A stretch of DNA of 35,773 nt from IMG/VR virus record IMGVR_UViG_3300008259_004935, positions 1 to 35,773 of that record, one strand, 5' to 3'. The DNA comes from a virus. Of this stretch, positions 1,992 through 19,194 are shown one piece after another (position 1 is the stretch's first letter; each line of letters starts with the position of its first letter). Made by a program: the position numbers and the translations under genes. The notes beneath the pieces were generated by a model, which was not told the DNA's origin, ran no database searches, and saw only the letters and a list, made by a program, of their open reading frames with translations.

Positions 1992-2016
1992 CCACCCAAC
2001 CACACCCCGCAGAATC

Positions 2017-4290: not shown

Positions 4291-4345
4291 CTATTCCCGG
4301 CCGGTGTGTTGACGGCGTGCATACCGGCCGATAATAGGAAAGCAC
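4291..4345 (+). promoter_or_regulatory. Repeated promoter-operator cassette, copy 1
   Basis: CTATT (4291-4295) is followed by CGGCCGG (4298-4304), -35 TTGACG (4309-4314), a 15-bp spacer, CCGGCCG (4324-4330) and -10 GATAAT (4330-4335), then AGGAAAGCACC. The two GC arms are exact reverse complements with 19 bp between them, so the -35 box lies inside the inverted repeat and the second arm touches the -10. The same arrangement occurs at 16142-16196 and 18696-18753. The 15-bp spacer is short for sigma-70, which suggests activator or repressor control through the arms. It drives the 66-residue gene at 4362. Confidence 0.85.
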
Positions 4346-4361
4346 CAACTGGAGCCACACC

Positions 4362-4562
4362 ATGACCCCCGATCCCGCCCTTGTCGCCGCGTGGTTTGCC
4401 CGCCCCGCCGCCGTCCGCGACTACTTCGCCGAGAACGTCGCCGACACCATCGGAGAGACCGAAGCCGAGCGCATCGGCTACGGCTCCGATGATCCCGCCC
4501 TCGTCGCCGCTTGGGCGGCCTACTGCGAAGCCGACGTGCGCGACAACGGGGCCGCCCAATGA
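4362..4562 (+). CDS. Small orphan protein behind promoter cassette 1, with internal duplication
   Basis: A 66-residue acidic protein starting at ATG 4362, with GGAG ten bases upstream. The peptide DPALVAAW occurs at residues 4-11 and again at 44-51. The DNA of the two copies (4371-4394 and 4491-4514) differs at only two of 24 positions, so the protein arose by a fairly recent internal duplication. No domain, membrane segment or cysteine pair is seen. It is the first of three similarly sized, otherwise unrelated proteins (66, 68 and 72 residues) each placed right behind the repeated promoter, so it probably acts early in infection. It is coupled to the next gene by ATGA. Confidence 0.75.
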   Translation: MTPDPALVAAWFARPAAVRDYFAENVADTIGETEAERIGYGSDDPALVAAWAAYCEADVRDNGAAQ

Positions 4563-4954
4563 GCGCCCCGCTCGCCCACCTCTCCGAGGCCGCCCTGAAG
4601 CTCTACGCCCGCCTCAACGGCCCGGAGGTCTGCACCACGTCCTCAGCGAAGCGCCACCGCGCGCTCTGGGCCATCGGTCAGACGCCCGACCCAGTGCTGC
4701 TGCGCCTCCTCGTGCTGCACCACGCCGAGCCCGCCCACCTCGCCCTCCTGACCACCCCGGCCGACGCCCTCACCCACTGGGCCGCCGACCCCATCACCGG
4801 AAGGCAGGGCCGCAGGCTCAGCGAGCAGGCCCTGCTGCTGCTGCAAGGCCTGCACATGATTGGCGCCACAGAGCAGCCCCTGCACACATTACCGCTCGTG
4901 TACCAGCCAGATCCGCCCCCGGTCTACTCCGACGCCCCGCTGCCCAACCTGTAA
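4559..4954 (+). CDS. Hypothetical protein, Leu/Ala-rich
   Basis: A 131-residue protein starting at ATG 4559, in an ATGA overlap with the previous gene. It is mostly helical by composition (LSEAALKLYARL, DPVLLRLLVLHHAEPAHLALL, LSEQALLLLQGLHMIG) and has a proline-rich tail (YQPDPPPVYSDAPLPNL). The residues LYARLNGPEVCTTSSAKRH may form a small DNA-binding winged region, but this is a guess. Its stop codon lies inside a perfect 11-bp hairpin, and an intrinsic terminator follows. No family recognised. Confidence 0.65.
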   Translation: MSAPLAHLSEAALKLYARLNGPEVCTTSSAKRHRALWAIGQTPDPVLLRLLVLHHAEPAHLALLTTPADALTHWAADPITGRQGRRLSEQALLLLQGLHMIGATEQPLHTLPLVYQPDPPPVYSDAPLPNL

Positions 4955-4970
4955 GCAGGGCTTACAGGTT
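4946..4970 (+). terminator. Perfect 11-bp hairpin over the stop codon
   Basis: AACCTGTAAGC (4946-4956) and GCTTACAGGTT (4960-4970) are exact reverse complements around a 3-base loop. The stop codon TAA (4952-4954) is inside the left arm. No T run follows, so it is not a canonical terminator by itself. It may protect the mRNA 3' end or act with the terminator 15 bases downstream. Confidence 0.5.
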
Positions 4971-4984
4971 CGCCCCAACGCAAA

Positions 4985-5012
4985 GAGCCCCGGACCTTCC
5001 GATCCGGGGCTC
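4985..5012. terminator. Bidirectional terminator between convergent operons
   Basis: GAGCCCCGGA (4985-4994) pairs perfectly with TCCGGGGCTC (5003-5012) around an 8-base loop. It separates the rightward early genes from the leftward endolysin gene, whose stop codon (5011-5013) overlaps the stem. An A run on the left (4982-4984) gives Us only for the leftward transcript; on the right there is no T run. It probably serves both directions, more weakly rightward. Confidence 0.7.
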
Positions 5013-5577
5013 AGCTACGTTCCCCCAACCACGCCGCGATCCCCCTCGCCACCGCCTGGCCCACTGAGTCGAGCTGGCCGAGGAAGGCGAGCCGGCGGGG
5101 CCCATCGAGGAAGTAGGGCTCCAGGCACAGCGCCACGGCGCGCACCCCGGCGATGGTGGCGAAGGCCTCGGAGAAGTCGCCGTCGCGGGGCGCCCCGTTG
5201 GTGTCCGGCCGACAGGCGATGTCACGCGCCGCCCAAGGCAGGGCCCGGGTCATCTCGCCGGCGACGGCGCGAGCCAGCGCCGCGCCCTTCGCCGACCGAT
5301 GATCGAAGAAGATGGCCGCGTAGTCGCCGCCTCCGGCGTTGACGTGGCAGTTGAGGTACACGTCGGCACCCCAGCCGTCAGCCAGCGCCCAGTGCTCCGC
5401 GTAGCCGCCGCCCATCAGGGGCAGGCACTCCACGCCCAGCCGGCGCAGCTCCTGGTCCATCGCCAGGACGTAGCGCGCGGCGACCTCGACCTCCTCCCGC
5501 CCGCCGAAGGCGGCCCCCCGATCGCCCGCTTTGCTCGGCCGACCCGCGTGTCCGATCGTCAGCGCGACCCTGGCCAT
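5011..5577 (-). CDS. Endolysin, N-acetylmuramoyl-L-alanine amidase (Amidase_3 type)
   Basis: This 188-residue protein should cut the amide bond between MurNAc and the stem peptide of peptidoglycan at the end of infection. The zinc ligands and catalytic residue of Amidase_3 enzymes are visible: H10 in LTIGHAG, a Glu near 28-31 in GREEVEV, H78 in YLNCHVNAGG and E153 in LCLEPYFLDG. There is no signal peptide and no separate cell-wall-binding domain, so release would depend on a holin. The start at 5577 has AGGAGG six bases before it; the ATG at 5595 would overlap that ribosome site. Unusually, the gene ends the replication operon and lies far from the membrane-peptide cluster at 20.2-20.6 kb. 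Confidence 0.88.
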   Translation of the reverse strand: MARVALTIGHAGRPSKAGDRGAAFGGREEVEVAARYVLAMDQELRRLGVECLPLMGGGYAEHWALADGWGADVYLNCHVNAGGGDYAAIFFDHRSAKGAALARAVAGEMTRALPWAARDIACRPDTNGAPRDGDFSEAFATIAGVRAVALCLEPYFLDGPRRLAFLGQLDSVGQAVARGIAAWLGERS

Positions 5578-5622
5578 GTGTGCCTCCTGGCGCACCCGCG
5601 CGGCGCCGATGCTGGCGGAGGT

Positions 5623-6021
5623 CTACCGGAGCGGCGCGGCCAGGTCAAGCCGCGCCAAGACCGCCTCCTCGCTCCCACCCTCGCACACCAGCACCGCCCT
5701 CCCGCCCCGCCACCGCAGCGCCTGCCACCGCCCATCATAGGCCGTCCGCCGCGCCACCGTGATTGCCCCAGGCAGGTACAGGCACGCCCCGACCCTGCGC
5801 CAACCAAGGGGCAGCTCTGGCCGCGCTTCGACCTTCTCCACCACGTCGCGGCAAGCGGGAGGCGGCGTCTGCGCTACCTTTTCGGCCTCGACAGCGACCG
5901 CAGCCGCCCTCGGTGGAGCCGCAGGTGGAGGAGCCGCCGCCCTCGGTGGAGGAGCGGCCGCCGCCCTCCTTTCCGGCGCCGCGGTCGACCGCGCCCCGAA
6001 GAGCGACCCCTGGCCGCTCAT
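5623..6021 (-). CDS. Small protein with N-terminal QGSLF peptide and Ala/Pro linker
   Basis: A 132-residue protein starting in an ATGA overlap with the methyltransferase gene. It opens with MSGQGSLFG, where QGSLF fits the QxxLF pattern of peptides that dock on the bacterial sliding clamp. An alanine/proline-rich linker follows (residues about 10-45), then a compact C-terminal part from about 65 onward (LPLGWRRVGACLYLPGAITVARR, WRGGRAVLVCEGGSEEAVLARL) that looks like a small beta-alpha fold. No enzyme motif is seen. The clamp idea is inference from a short motif; the remaining function is unknown. Confidence 0.65.
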   Translation of the reverse strand: MSGQGSLFGARSTAAPERRAAAAPPPRAAAPPPAAPPRAAAVAVEAEKVAQTPPPACRDVVEKVEARPELPLGWRRVGACLYLPGAITVARRTAYDGRWQALRWRGGRAVLVCEGGSEEAVLARLDLAAPLR

Positions 6022-6668
6022 CGGCCACCCGTGAAGAGCCCGACCTGCGAAAGCGGCTCAGGCTCCCAGCCCAGGATCGTCCGAGTATCCCCGTGCGCCG
6101 TCCGCTGCCCCCACAGGATGCCCGCGGCGCCGAAGTTGTCGACGCCCCCGAGCATGTCGCCGCCCGGGCCCTCCCATTCCATGCGCCGCGCCGTGGTCAG
6201 GGTGCGCTCTGGCACCGCTCGCCGCCAGATCGGCACGCGCTTCACCCCTTCCATCGTCGTGATCCTGCACAGCAGGACAACGGCGGACACCCGACCCTCA
6301 AGCCACGCATCGGTCATGGCCAGGATCGCCTCGTTCATCAACGCGAAGGGCGGGTTTGTGCAGATGGCAACCCCGCACGCCTCTCGGATGGCCGCGAGCC
6401 CGTCACCGAGCACGGCCCGCCCATCGAGCACAGCGGGCGCCCCCTCGTCAAGGTCGACCCCGCGCGCAGACGTGGCCCCGACGGTCAGCGCGGCCCGGAG
6501 CCACACCCCGCCGCCGGCGAAGGGGTCGAGCACGTCGCGCCCTTCGATGGCGTGGCGCCACTCCTGGCACACGCCCAGCGCCACCGGCCAAGGCGTGTAG
6601 TATCTGTCCATGGGGTCACGGGCGCTCTTTCGGCCGGACCCTGCCGGCACGGTGCTCTTAGCTGCCAT
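6018..6668 (-). CDS. DNA N6-adenine methyltransferase
   Basis: The 216-residue protein has the motifs of a phage Dam-like adenine methyltransferase. YYTPWPVA (23-30) begins the SAM-binding part, DPFAGGG (48-54) is motif I, VDLDEGA (71-77) is the acidic motif II, and NPPF (105-108) is the catalytic motif IV. It would transfer a methyl group from S-adenosylmethionine to adenine in DNA, for instance to protect phage DNA from restriction or to mark it. No restriction enzyme is present, so it is a solitary enzyme. The start at ATG 6668 overlaps the upstream gene by 11 bp; longer N-terminal extensions read as Arg/Ser-rich shadow sequence. The C-terminus carries SQVGLFTGG, a second QxxLF peptide next to the one in the following gene. 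Confidence 0.87.
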   Translation of the reverse strand: MAAKSTVPAGSGRKSARDPMDRYYTPWPVALGVCQEWRHAIEGRDVLDPFAGGGVWLRAALTVGATSARGVDLDEGAPAVLDGRAVLGDGLAAIREACGVAICTNPPFALMNEAILAMTDAWLEGRVSAVVLLCRITTMEGVKRVPIWRRAVPERTLTTARRMEWEGPGGDMLGGVDNFGAAGILWGQRTAHGDTRTILGWEPEPLSQVGLFTGGR

Positions 6669-7227
6669 GGGCCACCCCCAGCGCCGCGAGCTGCGCCCGC
6701 AGCTCAACCACCCGCCGCTGCTCAGCCAGGAGCCACGCGCGCAGCGGCTTTGCCCTCTCCTCGGTGAGCTGCTTCTGCAGCTCGGCCACCTTGCCAAGCA
6801 GCACGGGCAACCCCTCCGAGGCCCGGGCCGCATCCCCGATCGCCTGGTCTCGCTCAACCAGCGCCCGGCCGAGCGACGCCGCAAGCTGCCCCGCCCGCGC
6901 CTTCTCCTCAGCCGCAGCCCCCTTCAAGGCTTCGGCCTCGGCCAGGGCCGCCTGCAGCCGCTCAACCGTCGCCCGCTCCCGCTCAAGCAAAACGCCCCGC
7001 TCCTCGATCGCCCGAGCCCCTTCCGCCAGACAGGCCCCGCAGATCGGCAGCGGGCACATCGGCCCCGTCACCAGCACCGGCTCGACCCCCGGCCGGTCTG
7101 TCTCGGCGCGCATCCCGCACACCGACCCGTCCGCGGCCGGCCCGACAAGGCACACCGCGATCCCCTCGCCTTCCGGCCACCCATGCGCCCACCACGCGAT
7201 CAGCGTGGCCGCCCTCTTTGTCGTCAT
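6658..7227 (-). CDS. Coiled-coil protein with N-terminal cysteine cluster
   Basis: A 189-residue protein with GGGAGG eight bases before its ATG. The first 70 residues contain several cysteines, including a CPLPICGAC group near 58-66, which could bind zinc. From about residue 70 to 180 the sequence is a long Ala/Glu/Leu/Arg helix (RERATVERLQAALAEAEAL, KVAELQKQLTEERAK) that should form a coiled coil. It lies between the primase and the methyltransferase in the replication operon, so a DNA-metabolism scaffold role is possible. No family recognised. Confidence 0.7.
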   Translation of the reverse strand: MTTKRAATLIAWWAHGWPEGEGIAVCLVGPAADGSVCGMRAETDRPGVEPVLVTGPMCPLPICGACLAEGARAIEERGVLLERERATVERLQAALAEAEALKGAAAEEKARAGQLAASLGRALVERDQAIGDAARASEGLPVLLGKVAELQKQLTEERAKPLRAWLLAEQRRVVELRAQLAALGVAHGS

Positions 7228-7273
7228 GTCACCTCCCAGGCCGCCATAGCGGCCCGCCCTCTGTGTTTAGTCG

Positions 7274-9985
7274 TCACCGGCCACCCCGCCCGAAGTCGAG
7301 CACGGTCCCGCGCCCCACCGGCAGCCCGTCCCGCGTGGTCAGCGTCCAGCCCCCGCGCGAGCCGGCCGCGAGCTTGACCGGCCCGTTCGGCGTTGACCAG
7401 GTCTGCCCCGCCCTCTTACGCAGCGCCGCCGCCATCGCATGAGGCCCGGCGCCGTCGCCGAGCCCCACGTCCAAGGTCTGCTCCTTCACCACCGACAGGA
7501 TCGCCTCTGGCGTCCTGCGCTCGCCGCCGTCCTCGGCCCACTGGAGGATCAGCGAGCGCCACCCGACCTCTTGAGGACTGACCTCGTCTACCGGCCGCAG
7601 CCACCCGCGCGACAGCCCCATGAGCCGCAGCGCCGGCCGGACGATGCGCCCGATCTGCGCGTAGGTGGCATTGTGCAGCTCGTCTTCGCGCGCGTCCCCG
7701 TCGCCCGCGGCGAGGCCGGCCTCAATGATCCGAAAGCAGGCCGACTGAATCCGCCCGACGTTCGCCCGGGTCCATTCGAGCAGGTCGCGATCGAACCGGC
7801 GAAGGTCAGGCCGCTCCATCCCGCTGTCGAGCAGGCAGACCGCCATCCGGCGAGACGAATCGCGGCCCATGTCTGCCCCGTTGCCCGTAAGGACGATCAG
7901 CAGATCGTCAGTTGACGCCGTCGCCGAAACGTGGGTGTGCATGGTCCTGTACTTGATCTTGCCGCTCGTCATCAGCAACGCGAGCGTTTGATGGTCGACC
8001 CGAACCTGCACGTTGTCTACGAAGACGGGCTGCCCTCCGTTGATGGCGCTGATCAGCTCCTTCTTCAGCTCATCAGGGCTGCCCTCCCAGGCCATCGGCG
8101 CGACTGGCGCGCCGCACAGCGCGGTCAGCAGGGCTTGAGCGAGGTACGTTTTACCTTCGCCTTGCCGCGCCGCCCCGATGAACAGTCCGGGCAGCGGCGC
8201 GTTCACCAACCGCGCCGTAAAGCCGGCAAAGAGCCACCCGAAGACAGCGGCCTCATCCTGTCCGCCCTCGCCATCCTCGGCCCCGTGCGGCGGTCCGTGC
8301 TTCCACGACACCTCTCCGAGCCAGTCGGACCGCAGGAAGCCGACCGCCTCGGCCACGCTCATCGGCTCCCGCCGCGAGACTGGCCCCTGAAGCCAAAGCT
8401 GCCCCGCCGCGTGGTAGCCCGGCCGGTCCAGCAGCGTCGGCCGCCCGTCTGCCCCGCGGACGTAGCGCGGCGCCCCAACGATGCGGGTGAGCACAGGCAG
8501 CCCTGGCACCGGCTCGGCCCGCATCAGCCCCGCCAACCGGACGGGAACGGCGACGGCCTCGTAAAAGTTGCCCCCCTTCGAGATCTCGTTCCCCTTGGGC
8601 TGGCGCACGGTGACCCAGTCGGCCACCTTGCCGAGAATCCCCGTCAGGGCCTCGTTAGTAAGGGCCTCGATCCGCGCCGCCCCGTCGTCACCGTCGACGA
8701 TGCGCACAAGCTCACCGTCGCGCCGGTACACGCCGGCCCCAGCGGCAGCCAGGGCAGCCCAGGCGGCGCGGATCAGCTCCCGGTCCTGCACCTTGTTCAC
8801 CTGAATCATAGGGAGCCCCGCCGGCTCCTCCCAGCGCAGCCCCGGCGCCGGCCGGTCCTCCTCCTGGCCCACATCGGGCACGGGCGGCGCCTCCTGCGCC
8901 TCCTCCGGCTCCGCGTAGGGCAGCGACGGCACCACCGACAGATCGGGCACCGGCGCCAGGATCGACCCATCGCCGCCCCCGTAGCGACGGGCCTGGTCTT
9001 CGCGCGCCAGGTCAAGGGGTGCAGGCCGGTCGGGCACGGTCAGCGGCGACAGGGCCCCGTGCGCGAGCGCCCCGTCGATGGCCCGCTCGATCTCGGCGCG
9101 CTTGCCTTGATCCCCGCCGTATGCGTAGAGGCCCGCCTCAACCAGAGCCGCCCTCCCGTGCGCCGCATCGAGGGCCCACAGGAGCCCCCCGATCGTCTCC
9201 GCCGCCTTCAGGATCGCCCCGTGCCGCGCCCCGGCTGGCGACCGGACGATCTCCTGACAGCCGCGAACAAGGGCAGCCCTGGCCCAAGCTACCTCGTGAT
9301 CCCGAGCTCGCCCGGAGCCGCCCGCCTCGCCAACGCCCTGCCACGGCCCGGCCGGCACCGGCGCCGCCTTGGGGCGCACAAGCTCGATCAGCCACGCCGG
9401 CGCCTCTGCGACCTCCGCCGAGCCCTCCCAGGCGTAGGTCCCGCCCGAGTAGTGCCCCGACGGCGGAGCGACGACGTAGCCGCCCGTCCCCCGCACATCG
9501 AGGCCCGTCCGCTGCCCATCCCAGCGCAGCCGCCCCCGGTTTGTGATGTCGAGCCCGTCGCTCGGCATCCGCCACCACAGGTGAAGCCCGCCGCTCCCCG
9601 TCCGCGCCCGCAGCGTGGTGGGCAGCACGCCGTGCACCTCCTGCATCCGAGCCAGCGCCGCCGGGCCCGCGATTCCCTCGCTACCCCCTGGCCGCTCTGG
9701 CCCAGGAGCAGCAAGGTCAACGTCAAGCACCCACACCCCCGACGGCCGCCCCGTCGCCACGCCCACCCAGGAGCCCGGCCGCGTCGCCCACAGCGCCCGC
9801 ACGCCCGCCTCCTGCGACGTGGCAGCCTCTCGCCAGCCGTCGATCGCAGGGTGCTTCCCGCGGCTCTTTCCGTCACAGGCCGCCCCAGCCGGGCAGCCAC
9901 AGGACCCCGCCACCATCGGCCACAGGGGCAGCACAGCCCACCCGCGCCGAGCCAGGCCAAGCGCGGCCTCGAGGTAGTTACTCAT
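7274..9985 (-). CDS. Primase-polymerase fused to an AAA+ type helicase/ATPase
   Basis: This 903-residue protein should start and perhaps extend phage DNA synthesis. The N-terminal part is an archaeo-eukaryotic type primase-polymerase: a CGCPAGAAC...GKHP cysteine entry (30-46), the metal-binding pair D88/D90 in VLDVDLA, SGGLHLWW with H135, and a GLDVRGTGGYVVAPPSGH strand near 161-178. A Pro/Ala/Glu-rich linker (about 310-390) follows. The C-terminal part is an ATPase: Walker A GAARQGEGKT (604-613), Walker B PVFVDNVQ (653-660), a sensor-like LTGNGAD (699-705) and RDSSRR (708-713) as likely arginine finger. It starts in an ATGA overlap with the helicase gene. Since the genome seems complete and no family A, B or C DNA polymerase is seen, this enzyme may supply the main initiation activity while the host polymerase elongates. 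Confidence 0.88.
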   Translation of the reverse strand: MSNYLEAALGLARRGWAVLPLWPMVAGSCGCPAGAACDGKSRGKHPAIDGWREAATSQEAGVRALWATRPGSWVGVATGRPSGVWVLDVDLAAPGPERPGGSEGIAGPAALARMQEVHGVLPTTLRARTGSGGLHLWWRMPSDGLDITNRGRLRWDGQRTGLDVRGTGGYVVAPPSGHYSGGTYAWEGSAEVAEAPAWLIELVRPKAAPVPAGPWQGVGEAGGSGRARDHEVAWARAALVRGCQEIVRSPAGARHGAILKAAETIGGLLWALDAAHGRAALVEAGLYAYGGDQGKRAEIERAIDGALAHGALSPLTVPDRPAPLDLAREDQARRYGGGDGSILAPVPDLSVVPSLPYAEPEEAQEAPPVPDVGQEEDRPAPGLRWEEPAGLPMIQVNKVQDRELIRAAWAALAAAGAGVYRRDGELVRIVDGDDGAARIEALTNEALTGILGKVADWVTVRQPKGNEISKGGNFYEAVAVPVRLAGLMRAEPVPGLPVLTRIVGAPRYVRGADGRPTLLDRPGYHAAGQLWLQGPVSRREPMSVAEAVGFLRSDWLGEVSWKHGPPHGAEDGEGGQDEAAVFGWLFAGFTARLVNAPLPGLFIGAARQGEGKTYLAQALLTALCGAPVAPMAWEGSPDELKKELISAINGGQPVFVDNVQVRVDHQTLALLMTSGKIKYRTMHTHVSATASTDDLLIVLTGNGADMGRDSSRRMAVCLLDSGMERPDLRRFDRDLLEWTRANVGRIQSACFRIIEAGLAAGDGDAREDELHNATYAQIGRIVRPALRLMGLSRGWLRPVDEVSPQEVGWRSLILQWAEDGGERRTPEAILSVVKEQTLDVGLGDGAGPHAMAAALRKRAGQTWSTPNGPVKLAAGSRGGWTLTTRDGLPVGRGTVLDFGRGGR

Positions 9986-12147
9986 CCTTGCACCCCCAGC
10001 ATCTGCCCGACATCTCTCACCGCCTGTCCCGCGCCCCCAATGGCGCGGTCAATCTCCGCCCGAGCGACCCCGAGCTGCATCAGTCGCCGCCCCCACTCCG
10101 CCGTCGCCGCCGTATCGGTCCCGGCGCGCAGGTAGCCCGCCCAGGCCACCCGCAGATCCCGCAGCAGCGCCTCAACGCCCGCCACCGTCAGCGAGGCCGC
10201 CGGCACCAAGCCGAGCCGGGCCGACACGGCCGCCAGCTCTGCCCGCCTGCCCGCCTGGACCGCGCCCTTCGCCGCGATCGCGTGGTGCTTGTTGTTCGCC
10301 TTCATCGCCTCCGCCCTGGCCGCGCGAGCCATCAGCCCCCGCAGCAGCATCGACGCTACGCCCTGCGCCGCCGGCACCTCGGCCCCGAGCTTCCTCAGCG
10401 CCGCCGCGGTCGCAACCGAGGTCGGCTCAGTCGCCCAATCACCCGCCGCGCGCGGCGTCGCCCCAGCCCGCCCGAGCACGCCCTCTCCCGCCCGCATGGC
10501 CTCGATCCGCCGCGCGTACTCATCGACCCGCGCCGCCCGGACCTGATCCCCGGTCCGCTCGATCCGCCAGAGCACCCAGGAGCCGCCCGACAGCGGCGCG
10601 CAGAGCGCCGTGACATCATGCCCGCCGGTCAGTCGCCCGCCGGTCGACCAGCACGCCGCGTCTCCCATCCCCTCGCAGAACCATGGCCAGATCGAAGCCC
10701 CGCCCGCGCCGAACAGCAGGGTCACCTGCGCGTCTCCGCGCCGCTCGATCCGCACCGCCGCGAGCCCGTCGTCTTCCGCCGACACCAGCGCAAGCTCAGT
10801 CGCCTTGTGCGACGTGCGCATCCCAGCCCGAGGCCCAGCCCCGTCACCGCGCGGCCAGCGGATCGGCCACCGCCCGCGCTCAGGGTCGCCATCGACGACG
10901 CCCGCGGCCCACTCAGGCTCGGCCCGCAGCCGTACCCGCGCGCCCACTTCGAGCACGAGAGGCTTAGCCGCCTTGGAGTCGGCCGCCGTGCCTTCGCTCT
11001 CGGCCAACTCGGCCTCTTTGTCGAGCCCCCAGTCGCCCATCGCCCCGCCGGTCATGTCGATGCACACGCAGTCGACCTTGTCGGGCGCAGACCGCAGCCC
11101 GCGCCCCAGCGCCTGCCGCTTGTCGATCGGCGACTTCATGGCGCGGCACACCAGCAGGCAGGACGTAGCCGGCGCGTCGAAGCCCTCAAGCACCAGGGCC
11201 ACGCTGCACAGCACCCGGATCTTGCCGGCCCGGTATTCCGCCAGCTTGCGGGCGATCTCAGGCTTGGGGTCCGACCCGGCGACGGCTTCGGCCTCGACAC
11301 CCGCAGCCCGAAAAGCAGCAGCCAACAACCCAGCGTGACTAATGTTTGTACAGAACGCGATCGTCTGCCGGCCCACAGCCCGCGCGAGCCACTCCTGCAC
11401 CGCCGCGCTGATCCGCGCCGGGCTGCGCTGGTCTTTGTTGTCCGCCTCTGAGAGGCCGCCCACGCCGGTAAGTTTCGGCGTCACGAAGACGGGCTGCGCA
11501 AGTACGCCGTCGGCGATGGCGGCCTGCATCGAGTATTCATAGGCGACACAGTCAAACACCCGCCCAAGCCCGGCGTCATCGTGCCGAAACGCCGTAGCGG
11601 TCAGCCCCAAGATCGGCATCGCCCGACCGCTGATCTTGGCTTTGCTGCGAAGGTCGGCCAGGACCGCCCCGTAGCTGTCCGCCGTCGCGTGGTGGGCCTC
11701 GTCAACCATCAGGATGCAGGCCCCCGCCGCAAGGTGCGCCAACCTCTCCGAAGACATCGACGCCACCGAGCACACCAGGGCCGGCGCCGTGGCGTCACAG
11801 CGCGTGCCCATGATGATCCCGACCTCGATACCGTGCATCGCGCCGACAACCTCGGCCCGCGCGTGCAGGTCGCGCACCAGCTCCTGCCGATGCACGATCA
11901 CCACCGCCGGCCGCGGCTCGAGGCCCTTCTGTCGCGCCCGCCAGTGCTCCAAGACCGCGGCGCGAACGAGGAGGGCGGCGATAAAGTCGCCTTTACCCGC
12001 GCCGGTGCAGACGTTGATCACCGGCGACTGACCAGCCACCCAGGCCGGCCGCGCGGCGAGGAGGGCCTCAAGTTGCCAGCGCCGCGGCGTGAAGCCCGGC
12101 CGCAGGGGCAGCTCTGGCAGTTCGCGGGGCAGCGTCACGGTTCCCAC
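9982..12147 (-). CDS. SF2 DNA/RNA helicase
   Basis: A 721-residue superfamily 2 helicase of the SSL2/UvsW kind. Its motifs, numbered from the chosen start, are: Q-region FTPRRWQLEAL, motif I NVCTGAGKGD (45-54), motif II VDEAHH (148-153), motif III LTATAF, and motif VI QALGRGLR. In motif I the Thr/Ser after the lysine is replaced by Gly, a variant that should be noted because that residue normally helps bind magnesium. The C-terminal 300 residues are an extra domain of unknown function with Trp- and Ala-rich stretches. The GTG at 12147 lies five bases after GGGGAGG and three bases past the resolvase stop; a second GTG at 12138 is also possible. It could unwind recombination or replication forks. 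Confidence 0.88.
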   Translation of the reverse strand: MGTVTLPRELPELPLRPGFTPRRWQLEALLAARPAWVAGQSPVINVCTGAGKGDFIAALLVRAAVLEHWRARQKGLEPRPAVVIVHRQELVRDLHARAEVVGAMHGIEVGIIMGTRCDATAPALVCSVASMSSERLAHLAAGACILMVDEAHHATADSYGAVLADLRSKAKISGRAMPILGLTATAFRHDDAGLGRVFDCVAYEYSMQAAIADGVLAQPVFVTPKLTGVGGLSEADNKDQRSPARISAAVQEWLARAVGRQTIAFCTNISHAGLLAAAFRAAGVEAEAVAGSDPKPEIARKLAEYRAGKIRVLCSVALVLEGFDAPATSCLLVCRAMKSPIDKRQALGRGLRSAPDKVDCVCIDMTGGAMGDWGLDKEAELAESEGTAADSKAAKPLVLEVGARVRLRAEPEWAAGVVDGDPERGRWPIRWPRGDGAGPRAGMRTSHKATELALVSAEDDGLAAVRIERRGDAQVTLLFGAGGASIWPWFCEGMGDAACWSTGGRLTGGHDVTALCAPLSGGSWVLWRIERTGDQVRAARVDEYARRIEAMRAGEGVLGRAGATPRAAGDWATEPTSVATAAALRKLGAEVPAAQGVASMLLRGLMARAARAEAMKANNKHHAIAAKGAVQAGRRAELAAVSARLGLVPAASLTVAGVEALLRDLRVAWAGYLRAGTDTAATAEWGRRLMQLGVARAEIDRAIGGAGQAVRDVGQMLGVQG

Positions 12148-12148
12148 C

Positions 12149-12952: not shown

Positions 12953-13626
12953 CACCAGCCCCCAAACATGCGGCGCTGCCTGGACTTCTCGATCTCCTCA
13001 TCGGTGGCCTTGCGCCGCCCGACCTCTTCGCCGGTCTCCCGCAGGAAGACCACCACCTCGCCGCCGATCACCCGCTCATCGACCTCCGCGAGCCGCCGCT
13101 CGAACCCCTGCGCCACGTCCTTGCGCCGAGCGGCAAGGTCGGCCTCGGCGTCGGCCATGGCGTCCTTCTCGTCTTTGTGGCGCGCCACCATCTCCTTCTT
13201 CCTGTCGGCCAGCTCGTCTTCCTGCAACAGGAAGAGGTGACGCGCCCGGATGGCCACGTCCGGCGCCATCGGCAGCCGCAGCATCTTCTCGCCGCGGAAG
13301 ATCAGCCCCTCGTCTCGCTCTTCATCGCGCGCCACCTTGGCGCGGTCGGCCAGGTCGCGCCGGATCACCGTGGCCCGCTCTTCGATGGCTGCCCGGACCT
13401 CGCCGGGCTGGCACAGCCGCGCCGCCTCATCAAGGAGCCCGACCTCATCCTCGCCGTAGATCGCCAGCTCATCGAGCCGGCCCCGCACATCGAGCCGCGC
13501 CAACCGCGCAGGCAGCGCGATCGCCGACACATGCGGCCGCACCATCACCTCAGCGGGCGGCAACGTCTCGCCGCCCTCATCGCTCTTCTTGCCTCGCCGC
13601 GCGGGGCTGCGTTCCGTTCCGGCCAT
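12952..13626 (-). CDS. Highly charged helical protein, first gene of the replication operon
   Basis: A 224-residue protein with AGGAGG eight bases before its ATG. It begins with a basic, Ser/Gly-rich tail (MAGTERSPARRGKKSDEGGE). From about residue 75 on it is almost entirely Glu/Asp/Arg/Lys/Ala helix, including ADRKKEMVARHKDEKDAMADAEADLAARRK near 145-175, and ends RRKATDEEIEKSRQRRMFGGW. No domain is recognised. Its place at the head of the leftward replication operon, behind a set of direct repeats, suggests a role in starting replication or in nucleic-acid binding, but this is only position. Confidence 0.7.
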   Translation of the reverse strand: MAGTERSPARRGKKSDEGGETLPPAEVMVRPHVSAIALPARLARLDVRGRLDELAIYGEDEVGLLDEAARLCQPGEVRAAIEERATVIRRDLADRAKVARDEERDEGLIFRGEKMLRLPMAPDVAIRARHLFLLQEDELADRKKEMVARHKDEKDAMADAEADLAARRKDVAQGFERRLAEVDERVIGGEVVVFLRETGEEVGRRKATDEEIEKSRQRRMFGGW

Positions 13627-13744
13627 TTGGCACCTCCTGCCCGAAGGCTACCCCGCGGCGCTACCCCCGCGCTACCCCTTTTCTACCCTATTTTTTCCCT
13701 TGCCTTTCCCTCCCTGCCCGTTAGCCATGGTGCAGGAGGCAAGA
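13627..13744. promoter_or_regulatory. Divergent replication promoter region with direct CTACCC repeats
   Basis: This spacer separates the leftward replication operon from the rightward recombination block. CTACCC occurs four times in the same direction at 13648, 13661, 13672 and 13683, so the copies are 13, 11 and 11 bp apart, about one helical turn, and would face the same side of the DNA. They are followed by a T-rich run (13690-13697) and by TTGCCTTTCC (13700-13709), also found at 1633-1642. Iteron-like repeats beside an AT-richer tract next to primase and helicase genes suggest an origin or a cooperative operator. No convincing sigma-70 boxes were found. Confidence 0.5.
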
Positions 13745-14140
13745 ATGCCCGACGCCGATCAGGTAGCGCGAGAGCGCGCCATCACCGCCCTTCTCGGCCC
13801 GATCGCCCGCTGCGATCTGGCCATCCCCATCGACAGCCACGTTCGCCACGACTGGATCGGCGCGCTGTCTCACCTGCGCTCGGCTCACCGCGCCCAGGCC
13901 CTCTTCGCCTCCTCGCTGGACGGCTACTTGGAGGGCTACGCCATGCCCGCCAAGACCGAGCGCGCCATCGAGCGCGGCCGGTGCGCCGTGTGCCTCGTCA
14001 GGGTGGCCGCCCTGCACCTCGCCGACGTGGCCCCCGTCGCGGCCGCTCTCGCCGACGTGTGGGGCAAGTCCGACCCCGCGACGGCCAGCCTCCTCGCCAT
14101 CTCGGCCAGGGCCGCCATCGGCCAGCCGGTGACCGAGTGA
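13745..14140 (+). CDS. Hypothetical protein upstream of the exonuclease
   Basis: A 131-residue, mostly helical protein whose ATG at 13745 lies five bases after AGGAGG. An ATG at 13727 is in frame but has no ribosome site. Near the N-terminus it reads ERAITALLGPIARCDLAIPID; the middle has two nearby cysteines in RGRCAVCLVRV (about 79-86), possibly a metal or redox pair. No family is recognised. It is joined to the exonuclease gene by a GTGA overlap, so it probably serves in the same recombination step. Confidence 0.65.
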   Translation: MPDADQVARERAITALLGPIARCDLAIPIDSHVRHDWIGALSHLRSAHRAQALFASSLDGYLEGYAMPAKTERAIERGRCAVCLVRVAALHLADVAPVAAALADVWGKSDPATASLLAISARAAIGQPVTE

Positions 14141-14982
14141 CCGCCAAGGTTTACCAGGGGCTGCGCTTCGAGGAGTACGGCGCAATCCGCGCCGTCAACG
14201 CGAGTCTTCTCAAGCGCGTTGCGGGCGGCTCCCCGCTGCACGGTCTGCACTACCTGCGAGAAGGGGGCGGGCCGGACACGCACAGCCGGATGGAGCTCCG
14301 CGCGACTCACACACTGGCCCTGGAAGGCAAGGCCGCTTTCCGTCGGGGCTATGCGGTCTGGGAGGGTTCGCGAAGGGGGCAGCTCTGGACCGACTTCGAG
14401 ACCCAGCAGCTCGCCGCGGGCCGCACCGTGCTCACCAGCGCCGAGCGGGCGCGAGTGCAGGCCAGGGCCGCCGCTCTCCTCGCCCACCCGGTAGCCGGGC
14501 CGCTCCTGGCCCACGCCGACGCGCTTCCCGAGATCACCGTCACCTGGACCGACGAAGTCACAGGCCTGCCCTGCAAGGCCCGTCTGGACCTCTGGGTAGA
14601 CGCCGAGGAGGCCATCGACGTGATCGACCTCAAGACGTGGCCCAGCACAGATCCTCGGATCGTCCTGCGCCAGATCGTGTCACAGCAGGTGCACCTACAG
14701 CTCGCCCACTACCGCGCCGCCGTGCGCGCCGTGGTTGGCGATGACGTGCCGATCCGCTGCGCCGTCATGGTCGCAGAGGACGCCGCGCCGCATGACGTAG
14801 GGGTCTACGTTCTCGACGAGGCCCTCCTGCTCCTGGGCGACGAAGCCCGGCGCGCGGCGCTGATCACCTGGGCGGACGCGGTCAAGCGCGGAGAGTACCC
14901 GGGCCGCGCGCCCAAACTGTGCACAATCGAAGCACCCGGATGGATGGTAGACGCCGCCGAAGACGCGGTGGAGGTGACGTAA
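14137..14982 (+). CDS. PD-(D/E)XK exonuclease (RecE/exonuclease VIII-like)
   Basis: The 281-residue protein begins at GTG 14137 in a GTGA overlap. The C-terminal half has the PD-(D/E)XK core seen in RecE-type phage exonucleases: PEITVTW with E132, the segment GLPCKARLDLWV with D151, and the metal-binding DLK of VIDLKTW (D164, K166), followed by a helix with QQVHLQLAHYRAAV. Such enzymes degrade one strand of double-stranded DNA to make single strands for annealing. The next gene is its usual companion, supporting a phage recombination pair. No Redbeta, RecT or Erf annealing protein was recognised. Confidence 0.85.
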   Translation: MTAKVYQGLRFEEYGAIRAVNASLLKRVAGGSPLHGLHYLREGGGPDTHSRMELRATHTLALEGKAAFRRGYAVWEGSRRGQLWTDFETQQLAAGRTVLTSAERARVQARAAALLAHPVAGPLLAHADALPEITVTWTDEVTGLPCKARLDLWVDAEEAIDVIDLKTWPSTDPRIVLRQIVSQQVHLQLAHYRAAVRAVVGDDVPIRCAVMVAEDAAPHDVGVYVLDEALLLLGDEARRAALITWADAVKRGEYPGRAPKLCTIEAPGWMVDAAEDAVEVT

Positions 14983-15578
14983 TGGCTGACATTTCCAACA
15001 CCCTCGCAGCAAAGTCAAACCAACTCAACGCGGTGGACCTGCCCCGCCCGCGCGTCTTTCGCGTGCTGGCCGTCAAGGTCGGCGGCACCACCGAGCAGCC
15101 CATCGACGTGCAGATCGACGGCTGGCCGCACCCCTGGAAGCCCTGCAAGTCGATGCGGCGGGTCCTGGCCGCCGCGTGGGGGACCGAGTCTGACCAATGG
15201 CTCGGAAAGGCCGTAGAGCTCTACTGCGACCCTGACGTGCTCTGGGCCGGGGAGCGCGCCGGCGGCATCCGAATCTCCGCCCTGTCGGACATTTCCGCCG
15301 GCGGGCTCGAGGTTGTGCTCCGCGCAAGCTCGAAGAAGTCGGCCCCCGTCCGCTTCAAGCGCCTGGACACCACAGACCCCCTCCTGGCCGTCGCCGCCGA
15401 GCGCGGCGAAGACCTCGCCGCCACCGAGGCCGCCATCGCCGCAGCGCGCGGCGGCCGCCCATGCCCGACCGACCACGCCGGCCGCGAGAAGGCCGCGGCC
15501 TGGGCTCGAACCGAGAAGGGCCGCGCCGCCCTCGCCGCAGTGACCACCGGCGCCGACGCTCAGCAGCACGGCGACTGA
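14982..15578 (+). CDS. Exonuclease-associated protein, probable ssDNA-binding
   Basis: A 198-residue protein starting in a TAATG overlap with the exonuclease gene. Residues about 15-120 are beta-rich with the pattern FRVLAVKVGG, PIDVQIDG, KPCKSMRRVLAAAWG, GKAVELYCDPDVLWAGE, GGIRISALSDI. I have seen this pattern in proteins paired with phage exonucleases, where it is often left unnamed, and it suggests an OB-like fold. The tail is an Ala/Arg-rich helical region. A role as single-strand binding partner is inferred from fold impression and neighbourhood, not from a known motif. Confidence 0.65.
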   Translation: MADISNTLAAKSNQLNAVDLPRPRVFRVLAVKVGGTTEQPIDVQIDGWPHPWKPCKSMRRVLAAAWGTESDQWLGKAVELYCDPDVLWAGERAGGIRISALSDISAGGLEVVLRASSKKSAPVRFKRLDTTDPLLAVAAERGEDLAATEAAIAAARGGRPCPTDHAGREKAAAWARTEKGRAALAAVTTGADAQQHGD

Positions 15579-15587
15579 CCTCCCCCA

Positions 15588-15618
15588 CCGCGGGCAGACC
15601 TGGCCCACCTGCCCGCGG
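15588..15618 (+). terminator. Perfect 10-bp hairpin, possible terminator or attenuator
   Basis: CCGCGGGCAG (15588-15597) and CTGCCCGCGG (15609-15618) are exact reverse complements around an 11-base loop, ten bases past the stop of the exonuclease partner. No T run follows, so termination would be partial or would need a factor. It may lower expression of the following gene. Confidence 0.5.
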
Positions 15619-15655
15619 CTTCCGCGACTTCTCCCGGGCCGCTCTCCCCCTCAAC

Positions 15656-16135
15656 ATGGATGCCCTCATGCGAATTGCCGTGATCTTCTGCCTCGCCTCC
15701 GACCTGCCCGCCGTGCTCGCCGCCGGCCTGGGCCAGGCCCCGCCCTCCCCGATCCCGCCGCAGCCCGAGCCGGTGAAGCTCCCCGAGCCCGCCGTGGCTG
15801 CCGCGCAGCCTCAGCCCGAGCCCCCCAAGGCCGATGAGCAGCCGCCCGCGCCGGCCAACGCTGCCCCGGTGGCCACCGAGGAGCCGCCCAAGCGCCGCAC
15901 CCGGGGCGGCTCGGAGCGGCCCACCGTGCCCGAGATCAAGGCGCCCGCCGACGCCCTCATCCCGCCGCCCAAGCCGCTCGGCGACCCCCCGCCGCGCCAA
16001 GACCCCTACGGCGCCGCCACCGAAGAGAAGCCCACCGAGCGGCCCTTCCGCCAGCGGTCGGGCCCCGCCGCGCGTCTGGGCTCAAACGAACCGCCGAGCA
16101 TCAGCTTCGAGGACGAGATCCCTGCGAACCCCTGA
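15656..16135 (+). CDS. Proline-rich protein with possible N-terminal signal or anchor
   Basis: A 159-residue protein with start uncertain between ATG 15656 and ATG 15668; neither has a good ribosome site. After MDALMR comes a moderately hydrophobic stretch (IAVIFCLASDLPAVLAAGLG) that may be a signal peptide or anchor, though it contains an aspartate. The rest is disordered in appearance, dominated by Pro, Glu, Ala and Lys (PIPPQPEPVKLPEPA, EEPPKRRTRGGSERP) and ends acidic (ISFEDEIPANP). Proline-rich spacers of this type bridge the periplasm in some envelope proteins. No family recognised. Confidence 0.55.
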   Translation: MDALMRIAVIFCLASDLPAVLAAGLGQAPPSPIPPQPEPVKLPEPAVAAAQPQPEPPKADEQPPAPANAAPVATEEPPKRRTRGGSERPTVPEIKAPADALIPPPKPLGDPPPRQDPYGAATEEKPTERPFRQRSGPAARLGSNEPPSISFEDEIPANP

Positions 16136-16141
16136 TCCGCT

Positions 16142-16196
16142 ATTTTTCGGCCGGCCTGTTGACGCTCAGCGGGCCGGCCGATAATAGCTAATCACC
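16142..16196 (+). promoter_or_regulatory. Repeated promoter-operator cassette, copy 2
   Basis: CTATT begins just before this stretch (16140-16144), followed by CGGCCGG (16148-16154), -35 TTGACG (16159-16164), a 15-bp spacer, CCGGCCG (16174-16180) and -10 GATAAT (16180-16185). Arm spacing (19 bp) and all box positions equal those of copy 1. The tract continues as AGCTAATCACC, and the predicted mRNA begins close to a hairpin at 16195-16226. It drives the 68-residue gene at 16239. Confidence 0.85.
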
Positions 16197-16226
16197 AGGG
16201 CGGCACACCAACCACCGCCGCCCTGG
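16195..16226 (+). other. 5' leader hairpin behind promoter cassette 2
   Basis: CCAGGGCGG (16195-16203) pairs perfectly with CCGCCCTGG (16218-16226) around a 14-base loop. It lies at or within a few bases of the expected transcript start and directly before the GGGGGAG ribosome site. Such a 5'-terminal stem usually protects mRNA from decay. Copy 3 has an equivalent hairpin of different sequence. Confidence 0.65.
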
Positions 16227-16238
16227 GGGAGCCCCGCC

Positions 16239-16445
16239 ATGTCGCCCGCCAAGATCGCCGCCACCGAAGCCGCCCTCGACAAAGCCGGCCTTGAGATCGT
16301 CACCACCCGCAACGGCGCCGCCATCAGCGCGCAAACCTCCTGCCGCCACCTGCCCACCGTTGAGCGGCACCCGCTGAACGGAACCGCCTACAGCAGCGCG
16401 AACGAGGCCCGGAAGGCCGCCGCCGCTTTCTTTGCCCGCGCCTAA
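16239..16445 (+). CDS. Small orphan protein behind promoter cassette 2
   Basis: A 68-residue protein with GGGGGAG eight bases before its ATG. It begins with an Ala-rich helix (PAKIAATEAALDKAG), then a beta-like LEIVTTRNGAAISAQ, one cysteine (C35) and a helical tail (NEARKAAAAFFARA). It resembles nothing I recognise and is not similar to the products behind cassettes 1 and 3. Its small size and dedicated promoter fit an early host-takeover or regulatory role, which is inference. Confidence 0.7.
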   Translation: MSPAKIAATEAALDKAGLEIVTTRNGAAISAQTSCRHLPTVERHPLNGTAYSSANEARKAAAAFFARA

Positions 16446-16475
16446 TCGCGCCCACCCCTCTCCCAGGGGGTGACA

Positions 16476-16534
16476 GACACCGTCCCCGCCGCCCGACGCT
16501 TCGGCTCTGTGCGCCGATCCGCGGGGGCCGTGTC
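16476..16534 (+). other. Long stem-loop in the spacer before the membrane protein/Rad50-like pair
   Basis: GACACCGTCCCCGC (16476-16489) and GCGGGGGCCGTGTC (16521-16534) form a 14-bp stem with one mismatch and one G-T pair. The 31-base loop contains a smaller CCGA-cgct-TCGG hairpin. It fills most of a 110-bp spacer and ends about 12 bases before the AGGAG ribosome site. It may be a structured leader, a processing site or an attenuator. There is no T run. Confidence 0.5.
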
Positions 16535-16555
16535 TTCCACCACCAGGAGCCCCAG

Positions 16556-16801
16556 ATGTCCCTTATCCCACCCGACCCCTCCCAGCCCGAGCCCTCCCCG
16601 GCCGTCGTGCGCCTGCGCGACGCTTTGATCGGCGCCGTCGCCTGCGGCGCGCTCGTCGCCGTGTTTCTCGTGACCTACGCCGAGGCGAGCCTCGCCCTGG
16701 CCGATCAGCAGCTTTTCAAGGCGCAGGAGCTTGAGGTCCGCGCAAACGCGCTGATGGCCGACGCGCAGGCTATGCGCTCGCTTTGCGGGGGTGACGAATG
16801 A
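16556..16801 (+). CDS. Small single-pass membrane protein coupled to the Rad50-like gene
   Basis: An 81-residue protein with AGGAG eight bases before its ATG. Residues about 23-46 (DALIGAVACGALVAVFLVTYAEAS) form one membrane segment, followed by a helical tail (LFKAQELEVRANALMADAQAMRS). The start is proline-rich. It overlaps the Rad50-like gene by ATGA, so the two are made together, an odd pairing for a DNA-repair ATPase. It could anchor the ATPase at the membrane, but no direct evidence is visible. Confidence 0.65.
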   Translation: MSLIPPDPSQPEPSPAVVRLRDALIGAVACGALVAVFLVTYAEASLALADQQLFKAQELEVRANALMADAQAMRSLCGGDE

Positions 16802-18696
16802 AAACGATCGAGCTTGCGGGTATCGGCCCGCACGTCGGCACCACCCACCTGCCCCTCCCCAACGCCACCGAGGGCCGCGGCGCCCTGGTCATCGCCGGGC
16901 CGTCGCAGTCCGGCAAGAGCACCGTCGCCGCGGCGCTCTGCTACCTGCTCACTGGCGCAGCGCCTGACGGGTCGACCATTGACCCGGCGGTGCTCAGCGC
17001 CGATGCAGGCTCGGTGCGGGTCAGCGCCGACGACGGCCGGGTCTTCGAGCTGCGGATCAGCCGCAGCGGGCGGAAGGCCTGGAAGTGCGGCGAGGAGACA
17101 GTGAGCGCCGCCAAGGATCGGCACCGCGTGCTGGGCGTCCTGGGCCTGGATGCGGTCGCCTCCCTTGTCGCGGGCATCGTCTGCCCGCTGGCGCTGCTCA
17201 AACAGGCGGAGGACGGGCAGGGGCGGGGCTTGCGGGCCACACTCACCGCGGCGCTGCCCGAGCGCAGCTTGGCAGGCGCGTTCGCAGAGCTCCTCGGCAC
17301 CTCCGCCCCGGCGCTGCCCGGGGATGCCACGGACACCCGGGGGGCCGTCCAGGCGACCACGCGGGCCACCGCCGCGCGGGATCGGGCGCTGGGCGCCCTG
17401 GAAGGGGCGCAGGCCGCTCAGCAGCGCCACGAGGAGGCGGGGGCGCCGGTGGCACCCGATGGGGCAGCCACGGCTGCCGCTCGGGCCGTTGTCGACGCCG
17501 GAGAGGCCTGGGCAGCCTACCGGCGGGCGGGCGGAGCTGGCGAGCGCCGGGCAGCCCAGTTGGCAGCCCTGGCCGACTGGGAGAAGCGCCACGCGGCGAT
17601 CCCCCCGGCGGTGGCCTACGACGGCGCGCCCGCGCCGGTGCGGATCGACCTGAGGCCCTTCGAACGCAAGCTCGAGGCGGCCCGGGATGCGCTCGCCGCC
17701 ATCCCCGACTCGGCCGGCGGCGCTCTGTCCGGCATCTGGGAGAAGCGCAACGCGGCGGCGATCCGCTGGGCGTCGATGTCGACCGCGAGCTGCGAAGCCT
17801 GTATGCAGGTAGTCTCGAAAGAGCAGGCGGAGCGCATCAAGAAGAGCGCCGCGGTGCAGCTTGACGAAGAGCGGCGCCTGGCCAACGAAGGACTGGCGAA
17901 GAAGCGCGCCACGGCTCAGGCCGCTGTCGCCGAGGCCGAGAAGGCCTTGGCTTGGCAGGCCGAGAAGCGCGAAGCCGAAGAGGCCGGCATCCTGGCCTAC
18001 GAGGCCGAGCGCGCCCAGGCGAAGGAGCGCACCGCCGCGCTCGCCGCGTTGGGCCCCAAGCCCACGGTGGACCCGGAGCCGATCGGGTCGCCGGCCAGTC
18101 CTGCCGCGGTTGAGCCCACCGCCGAGGAGGTCGCCCAGGCCCGCGCCCTGCTCAGCCGCGCCGCCCAGGCCGCCGCCGATCTTCGGGCCTACGAGGCGCG
18201 CACCGTGACGCTCTCGGAGGACCTCGACCGCGCCGCCGACGCCCTCAAAGCCCGGGAGGCAGACCTGGCCCGAGCCCGCGCCGTGGAGCTGGCCCACAAG
18301 GGGGCGCCGGCCCGAGTCCTCGAGCAGCAGCTCGTCGACTGGCGCCCCGCCGCTCGGATGCTCGCCGGCCAGGGTATTGAGATCAGACTGCGCCCCGCCG
18401 GCGAGATCGACGGCCTCGACCTGATGATCGACGGCCTCCCCAGCTACCTCGCCAGCACCGGCCGGCGCGTGCACGCCGCCGCTCTCCTCGCCTTCGCGTT
18501 GCGCACCCTCGCAGCGCGGCGCTACCCGGCGACGGGCGGGATCGGGGGCTTCGCGGACCTGCCGATCTGTGTGGACGATGCGCAGGCGTGGAGCGGCGGC
18601 TGCTACCCGAGCCGCGGCCCGCTGCTCTGGCTCCTCACCGAGCCGAGCGCAGAGGCGGGCCCAACCGCGCTCACCGTGCGGTGGGAGCGGCTGTAA
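16798..18696 (+). CDS. Rad50/SMC-like ATPase with CxxC hook
   Basis: The 632-residue protein has the layout of Rad50/SbcC: Walker A GPSQSGKST (34-42) at the N-terminus, an Ala/Glu/Arg-rich helical region (about 180-320), a CEAC motif (332-335) at the centre of the chain that fits the zinc hook, a second helical arm (340-500), then an ABC-signature-like LASTGRR (551-557) and Walker B ICVDDAQ (590-596). Such ATPases usually work with an Mre11/SbcD nuclease on DNA ends; T4 gp46/gp47 is the phage example. No Mre11-like gene is present, so the partner may be the PD-(D/E)XK exonuclease at 14137, a host nuclease, or none. The arms are short compared with Rad50 (about 900-1300 residues). It starts in an ATGA overlap with the membrane protein gene. 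Confidence 0.82.
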   Translation: MKTIELAGIGPHVGTTHLPLPNATEGRGALVIAGPSQSGKSTVAAALCYLLTGAAPDGSTIDPAVLSADAGSVRVSADDGRVFELRISRSGRKAWKCGEETVSAAKDRHRVLGVLGLDAVASLVAGIVCPLALLKQAEDGQGRGLRATLTAALPERSLAGAFAELLGTSAPALPGDATDTRGAVQATTRATAARDRALGALEGAQAAQQRHEEAGAPVAPDGAATAAARAVVDAGEAWAAYRRAGGAGERRAAQLAALADWEKRHAAIPPAVAYDGAPAPVRIDLRPFERKLEAARDALAAIPDSAGGALSGIWEKRNAAAIRWASMSTASCEACMQVVSKEQAERIKKSAAVQLDEERRLANEGLAKKRATAQAAVAEAEKALAWQAEKREAEEAGILAYEAERAQAKERTAALAALGPKPTVDPEPIGSPASPAAVEPTAEEVAQARALLSRAAQAAADLRAYEARTVTLSEDLDRAADALKAREADLARARAVELAHKGAPARVLEQQLVDWRPAARMLAGQGIEIRLRPAGEIDGLDLMIDGLPSYLASTGRRVHAAALLAFALRTLAARRYPATGGIGGFADLPICVDDAQAWSGGCYPSRGPLLWLLTEPSAEAGPTALTVRWERL

Positions 18697-18753
18697 CTAT
18701 TTTCCGGCCGGTGTGTTGACGGTCAACGCGCCGGCCGATAATAGAAAAGCACC
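18696..18753 (+). promoter_or_regulatory. Repeated promoter-operator cassette, copy 3
   Basis: CTATT (18697-18701), CGGCCGG (18705-18711), -35 TTGACG (18716-18721), a 15-bp spacer, CCGGCCG (18731-18737) and -10 GATAAT (18737-18742) keep the same spacing as in copies 1 and 2. The tract continues as AGAAAAGCACC. Only this copy turns the -35 region into a further small palindrome, TTGAC-G-GTCAA. It begins at the stop codon of the Rad50-like gene and drives the 72-residue gene at 18790. Confidence 0.85.
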
Positions 18754-18774
18754 GGGGCGATGGACCAGCCCCGG
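18752..18774 (+). other. 5' leader hairpin behind promoter cassette 3
   Basis: CCGGGGC (18752-18758) pairs perfectly with GCCCCGG (18768-18774) around a 9-base loop. It lies at the predicted mRNA 5' end, and the AAGGAG ribosome site begins right after the stem. It has the same position as the hairpin of copy 2 but a different sequence, so the structure appears to be what is kept. Confidence 0.65.
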
Positions 18775-18789
18775 AAGGAGCCCGCCGCC

Positions 18790-19008: not shown

Positions 19009-19016
19009 CCACCCAA

Positions 19017-19121: not shown

Positions 19122-19194
19122 TTTTTCAGTCAGCCGCCCGCCTCTCGCCCTGCACACCGGCGAGGGGCGGGCCTTCACCCAGGAGCTACCCACC

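Follow-up and report, generated by a model that had tools for sequence, protein, structure and literature searches.

Three intergenic copies of one inverted repeat, each holding promoter-like boxes and each followed by a different small gene, recur in a 35,773-nucleotide stretch of viral DNA (IMG/VR record IMGVR_UViG_3300008259_004935, taken whole and referred to here as the window). All three are conserved in a related phage, G001 (IMG/VR record IMGVR_UViG_3300042507_008319, 38,325 base pairs (bp)), in which some of the genes behind them differ. The explanation that we favour, with moderate confidence, is that each copy is a regulated intergenic promoter lying inside an inverted repeat of 47-48 bp.

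From the features of the sequence we infer promoter activity, a regulator, co-regulation and a start site, as follows. Each copy would serve as the promoter of the accessory gene directly behind it and would be read by the host's main sigma factor. The putative boxes, -35 TTGACG and -10 GATAAT, sit in the inverted repeat, with the left arm holding the -35 and the right arm entering the -10. The dyad would most likely be bound by a dimeric regulator, coded by the phage or by the host, that covers both boxes, and one such regulator would set all three copies together. Transcripts would begin a few nucleotides beyond AATAG, the right end of the dyad, near a conserved CACC, and at sites 2 and 3 a short hairpin and then a Shine-Dalgarno sequence would open the message.

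The element and its conservation

The three-part pattern CGGCCGG-N2..6-TTGAC-N8..14-CCGGCCG matches the + strand of the window at 4298, 16148 and 18705 only, and it matches none of 100 shuffled sequences. An initial annotation of this DNA had described the same layout in three places (CTATT, GC arms, TTGACG, GATAAT and AG..AA.CACC), and the search bears this out, as do the window copies themselves for the claimed 19 bp between the arms and the exact TTGACG-N15-GATAAT spacing. Copies 1, 2 and 3 begin CTATT-CC-CGGCCGG, CTATT-TTT-CGGCCGG and CTATT-TTC-CGGCCGG, respectively, and all continue with TTGACG, 15 bases, GATAAT and then AG..AA.CACC. The copies and their boxes are:

4291..4337, + strand: element copy 1, a 47-bp dyad CTATT...CGGCCGG-TGTGTTGACGG...CCGGCCGATAATAG, abutting the TAA of the upstream gene
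4309..4314, + strand: putative -35 of copy 1, TTGACG, the same in six of six copies in the two phages
4330..4335, + strand: putative -10 of copy 1, GATAAT, spaced 15 bp from the -35; TAATAG at 4332-4337, spaced 17 bp, is the alternative
16140..16187, + strand: element copy 2, a 48-bp dyad; hairpin of -35.2 kcal/mol
16159..16164, + strand: putative -35 of copy 2, TTGACG
16180..16185, + strand: putative -10 of copy 2, GATAAT
18697..18744, + strand: element copy 3, a 48-bp dyad, abutting the TAA of an SbcC-like gene
18716..18721, + strand: putative -35 of copy 3, TTGACG
18737..18742, + strand: putative -10 of copy 3, GATAAT

The GC arms had been taken as the inverted repeat. They are present, but the dyad is larger: CTATT pairs with AATAG at its outer end and, in most copies, TGTTGA pairs with TCAACA at its inner end. 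The whole 47-48 bp is a near-continuous palindrome, with TTGACG in the left arm and GATAAT across the right edge. CGGCCG is a self-complementary 6-mer, and it is the neighbouring bases, not this 6-mer alone, that prove the dyad symmetry. The hairpin has about 20 pairs and a loop of 3 nucleotides (9 in window copy 1). Folding energies range from -27 to -38 kcal/mol (-27 to -35 for the window copies) with z-scores of -5.3 to -7.9, so that all six copies fold far better than their shuffled versions; an Rfam scan of the window gave no gathering-level match. All copies lie between rightward genes. They start 0, 4 and 0 nucleotides after the upstream stop codon (copies 1, 2 and 3), and the next start codon, preceded by a Shine-Dalgarno sequence, follows 24-51 nucleotides past AATAG.

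G001 is 85-91% identical to the window over most of the genome, and is circularly permuted relative to it. It carries exactly three copies, in the same intergenic gaps as the window's three, and a matrix built from the six sites finds these six and no more. Copies 2 and 3 of G001 are nearly identical to their window counterparts. Copy 1 has drifted (CTATTTCCGGCCGCCATGTTGACGATCAACAGGGCGGCCGTTAATAG): both arms have changed together (GGCGGCCG versus CGGCCGCC), and at the inner end TGTTGA and TCAACA pair perfectly.

Eleven arm pairs are fixed in all six copies, namely the outer five of CTATT/AATAG and CGGCCG on either side, as would be expected of sequence-specific binding. The four pairs further in than CGGCCG vary. 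Three of these (columns 19-21 of alignment A5) show two-sided changes that restore pairing, and the fourth occurs only in U-A, U-G and C-G forms; one-sided changes that preserve pairing fall at columns 22 and 24. The covariation score is above those of all 500 shuffles and of every slid register. Covariation over six related sequences supports a selected dyad, and fits action as DNA or as RNA alike.

The dyad is not conserved evenly, however. All six copies have GTTGACG without change. Of its mirror images, three are intact, two carry changes and one, that of window copy 1, is lost. The two bases preceding AATAG vary less than the corresponding left-hand bases. This asymmetry argues for a directional function on top of the dyad, which is best read, and most simply, as the -35 and -10 of a promoter. 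The fixed GTTGACG with its varying mirror, and the conservation in G001, support the earlier proposal of a shared promoter-plus-dyad cassette before unrelated small genes; absence of the layout from all related phages had been named as the finding that would speak against it, and G001 has three copies, placed before small genes.

Beyond these two phages the element was not found. Three further contigs that share the terminase, all of them fragments, gave no copy; loose-pattern matches in viral contigs (77, 36 and 5 stretches) include the element only in those from G001; neither the element nor a relative of the terminase was found in 84,980 genomes; and a search of sequenced phages matched neither the element nor the protein encoded at site 2.

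The window is a circular tailed-phage record of 35.8 kb, complete or nearly so. Its last 10 bases (35764-35773) equal its first 10 (1-10) and the terminase gene, 97% identical to that of one relative, runs across the joint; the circular record therefore has an arbitrary start. Tail and replication genes could be assigned to recognisable families. Genes run rightward at 1728-4954 and 13745-19551, and mostly leftward elsewhere.

Genes behind the elements

As the initial annotation had stated, a different small open reading frame (66, 68 and 72 codons) follows each copy, and the three proteins are unrelated to one another. These genes, and the second hairpins that precede two of them, are:

4362..4562, + strand: orphan gene of 66 codons following copy 1; in G001 its homologue (50% identity over 40 residues) lies one gene further from the element
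16239..16445, + strand: orphan gene of 68 codons following copy 2, with 96% identity to its G001 counterpart and without a family match
18790..19008, + strand: 72-codon orphan gene behind copy 3; G001 has an unrelated 70-codon gene instead
16195..16226, + strand: second hairpin of site 2, between the element and the Shine-Dalgarno sequence; 10-bp stem, z-score -3.5 (G001 counterpart -3.9)
18752..18774, + strand: second hairpin of site 3, before the Shine-Dalgarno sequence; 7-bp stem, z-score -0.8, weak alone; stem kept and loop changed in G001

In G001 the element at site 1 is followed first by a 68-codon gene and only then by the homologue of the window's 66-codon gene, so the extra gene was either lost from the window or gained by G001. 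At site 3 the unrelated 72- and 70-codon genes lie between the same element and the same downstream gene. Since the genes differ at sites 1 and 3 and the element is kept, the element outlasts the genes behind it; on the evidence of this comparison, the elements persist while the genes behind sites 1 and 3 are exchanged.

The suggestion that they are host-takeover genes was a guess and finds no support: searches of Pfam, PHROGs, PADLOC and NCBIfam returned no family for the small proteins, bar a meaningless transketolase fragment. For the site-2 protein, one of five models reached a predicted local distance difference test (pLDDT) score of 82 and the others 44-52, with no PDB or viral match below E 0.001, and nothing is concluded from them. 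Homology of the G001 proteins at sites 1 and 3 through a shared WxxVRxxLxxAW motif was rejected, as 34 of 500 shuffles score equally and BLASTP gives no alignment.

All three G001 sites and window sites 2 and 3, but not window site 1, have a second hairpin that comes about 7 bases past AATAG and immediately precedes the Shine-Dalgarno sequence; only at site 2 is this hairpin clearly significant by itself. A start near CACC would put it at the extreme 5' end of the message.

Just past the site-3 gene, 19050-19121 holds a sequence like the 3' end of a tRNA (GGGTTCGAATCCCGCCGTCTCCGCC) that G001 does not have. ARAGORN predicts no tRNA anywhere in the window, and Rfam gives this segment sub-threshold matches only, transfer-messenger RNA among them. 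It is possibly a captured tRNA end or the remnant of an attachment site.

Promoter, RNA hairpin or other site

With a 15-bp spacer, each hexamer matches the sigma-70 consensus at five of six positions. Either of two hexamers could be the -10: GATAAT fits better in sequence and worse in distance, TAATAG is the opposite, and the GTTAAT found in copy 1 of G001 weakens the case for GATAAT. The short spacer noted in the initial annotation is a matter of reading, since TAATAG at 17 bp is an alternative -10. A promoter scanner restricted to hexamers 16-18 bp apart and to -10 boxes whose second base is A and sixth base T did not list the three + strand sites.

Several observations weigh against a promoter under a dimeric regulator. 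A 15-bp spacer is short for the sigma-70 type, GTTAAT in copy 1 of G001 is without the important A, and TAATAG is without the final T. The gap from CTATT to CGGCCG is 2 or 3 nucleotides on the left and constant on the right, which is awkward for one rigid half-site. No regulator was identified, and no copy of the element lies upstream of the helix-turn-helix (HTH) gene discussed below. Finally, departures from pairing in the arms are mostly G-T and not A-C, which an RNA hairpin fits better than a DNA site.

Does the dyad then act mainly as RNA? A read-through hairpin of about 20 pairs behind the stop codon would protect or define the upstream 3' end, or would be cut by a nuclease specific for double strands (RNase III, for example), so that the upstream message and the small gene come apart; the same DNA may also hold a promoter. 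We regard this as possible, though clearly less probable than the promoter. Transitions on either strand of a site that acts purely as DNA should yield G-T and A-C equally, while in a + strand RNA only G-U still pairs. The 12 imperfect arm positions of the six copies comprise 8 G-T, 1 A-C and 3 other. As a yardstick we extracted from Adephagia its seven extended start-associated sequences (ESAS), inverted-repeat elements of Cluster K mycobacteriophages. These have 3 G-T, 7 A-C and 5 other, which agrees with the remark of the 2011 ESAS authors that the departures there do not support RNA pairing (PMC3203893). The contrast of G-T with A-C between the two sets gives a Fisher p of about 0.02, for copies that share ancestry and represent only some 5 independent events. 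The bias is thus only a hint that a hairpin in a read-through transcript may matter too.

Other findings also fit an RNA role: six of six copies fold far better than shuffles, compensatory changes are two-sided at three pairs with covariation above 500 shuffles and slid registers, and the element starts 0-4 nucleotides after a stop codon. However, neither side has a U-tract, yet an ordinary terminator with a U-tract, itself conserved in G001, lies elsewhere in the phage at about 2020-2052, as does a terminator-like hairpin at 4985-5012. Pairing alone leaves the 11 never-varying pairs unexplained, the independent G-T events number only about 5, and from the predicted start site the small gene's own message would be without the hairpin. 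An intrinsic terminator was rejected: the hairpin is followed by AUAAUAG with no U-tract, and the scanner lists none on the palindromes in the + direction.

The two roles might also be combined in one sequence, acting in DNA as a regulated promoter for a swappable gene and in RNA as a sealed hairpin at which the upstream message ends or is processed. We think this unlikely. If true, the element would be a self-insulating cassette port, allowing phages to exchange accessory genes without disturbing the operon.

An improbable reading is that the dyad is a DNA structure site (a cruciform, a target of methylation or of a nuclease, or a replication signal) on which the SbcC-like neighbour might act, with the promoter likeness incidental. 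CGGCCG is self-complementary, and the phage encodes a methyltransferase-like protein plus the SbcC-like protein between sites 2 and 3. But CGGCCG is neither rare nor enriched (89 found, 98 expected), and the constant placement before a small gene and the fixed TTGACG are left unexplained. The same counts rule out CGGCCG as an enriched or avoided methylation site. The SbcC-like ATPase gene itself spans 16798-18696, between copies 2 and 3, and is 72% identical in G001; proteins of the SbcC type act on hairpins and palindromes.

We give about as little credence to a recombination or mobility site, where a site-specific or single-strand recombinase would have inserted element and small gene as a cassette. 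Gene content at sites 1 and 3 does differ between phages otherwise 85-91% identical, with the element kept, but no cassette has a second copy at its far end, no candidate recombinase was recognised beside the elements, the copies occupy the same three places in both phages, and ordinary homologous recombination at shared boundaries accounts for the exchange.

For the favoured regulated promoter, control of all three copies by a single protein, as first suggested, is plausible because of the analogy with ESAS. The HTH-like protein nominated for this part (gene 2320-2997) is only a weak candidate: it has a weak match to a DNA-binding family (E 0.004), and its low-confidence model (pLDDT 55) was not used. 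Its gene is preceded by a region that is conserved in G001 and contains a small dyad ATCGGCCAGACCGAT at 2274-2288, which shares the 8-mer TATCGGCC with the right edge of the elements. The window has five occurrences of this 8-mer, of which three belong to the elements; it is only a lead, because base composition alone would give about one.

In G001 (L119:9342) the position of the HTH gene's ATG reads ATT, and the start codon may be elsewhere. The segment before this gene (2160-2290) is nearly unchanged, has a TATAAT box with GTCGAC 15 bp upstream, and is probably an early promoter region. A divergent intergenic region at 13660-13735, highly conserved and with repeated GCTACCCC and CTACCC motifs, is a probable leftward promoter region.

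Comparison with known systems

The closest parallel is with ESAS, intergenic elements of 46-47 bp in Cluster K mycobacteriophages that occur several times per genome and combine SigA-like boxes with an inverted repeat (PMC3203893; PMC11373665). Their authors propose a regulator on the inverted repeat, which they have not identified (PMC11373665). Both elements are multi-copy intergenic inverted repeats that precede genes of different families and are conserved amid gene change: several copies before non-structural genes in ESAS, three before unrelated genes in both phages here. In both, the left arm contains GTTGAC and the right arm overlaps the -10, which is putative in the present element, and for ESAS too the function of the repeat is unproven.

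The details differ. ESAS have imperfect 17-bp inverted repeats, a 4-13 bp spacer and a TGTTGACATGCATACAG-like consensus that the present element does not match; the Adephagia form is TGTTGACATGCATACAG-N12-CTGTATGCATGTCAACA, against arms of CTATT..CGGCCGG..TGTTGA here. TTGAC lies at the outer end of the arm in ESAS and at the inner end here, the loop is about 12 nucleotides against 3, and the boxes are 17-18 bp apart against TTGACG-N15-GATAAT or TTGACG-N17-TAATAG. Arm departures are mostly A-C there and mostly G-T here, and ESAS are carried by an unrelated phage lineage. The three sites do not have the full 13-bp start-associated sequence of the ESAS type (GGGATAGGAGCCC); near their start codons just the core AGGAGCCC or GGAGCC is present, e.g. 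GGAAGGAGCCC before 18790. As sequence, spacer and start-associated sequence all differ, the element is not an ESAS member, although it would work like one as far as anatomy can tell.

Other repeated dyads are the 17-bp repeats of Cluster O mycobacteriophages and the 18-bp ones of Microbacterium Cluster EG phages. They are short palindromes, number from 8 to more than 30 copies and have no reported internal promoter; EG repeats lie in short intergenic regions just before start codons, as here, and Cluster O copies are also intragenic (PMC4351075; PMC7302621). Both are more distant from the present element than ESAS.

The morons of temperate phages offer another comparison. In these, a small accessory gene with its own promoter is inserted in an operon and exchanged between relatives, and a terminator usually follows it. 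Here one putative promoter recurs in three places and, unlike the usual moron, no terminator was found directly behind the small genes.

The ESAS plan, a multi-copy promoter in a long inverted repeat before exchangeable small genes, would thus occur outside Cluster K in unrelated sequence, a sign that high-GC phages may use this solution repeatedly. Such elements may serve as a signpost, marking the genes directly behind them as candidate independently expressed accessory genes, and the covariation together with the G-T bias offers a concrete, testable contrast between a DNA site and an RNA hairpin.

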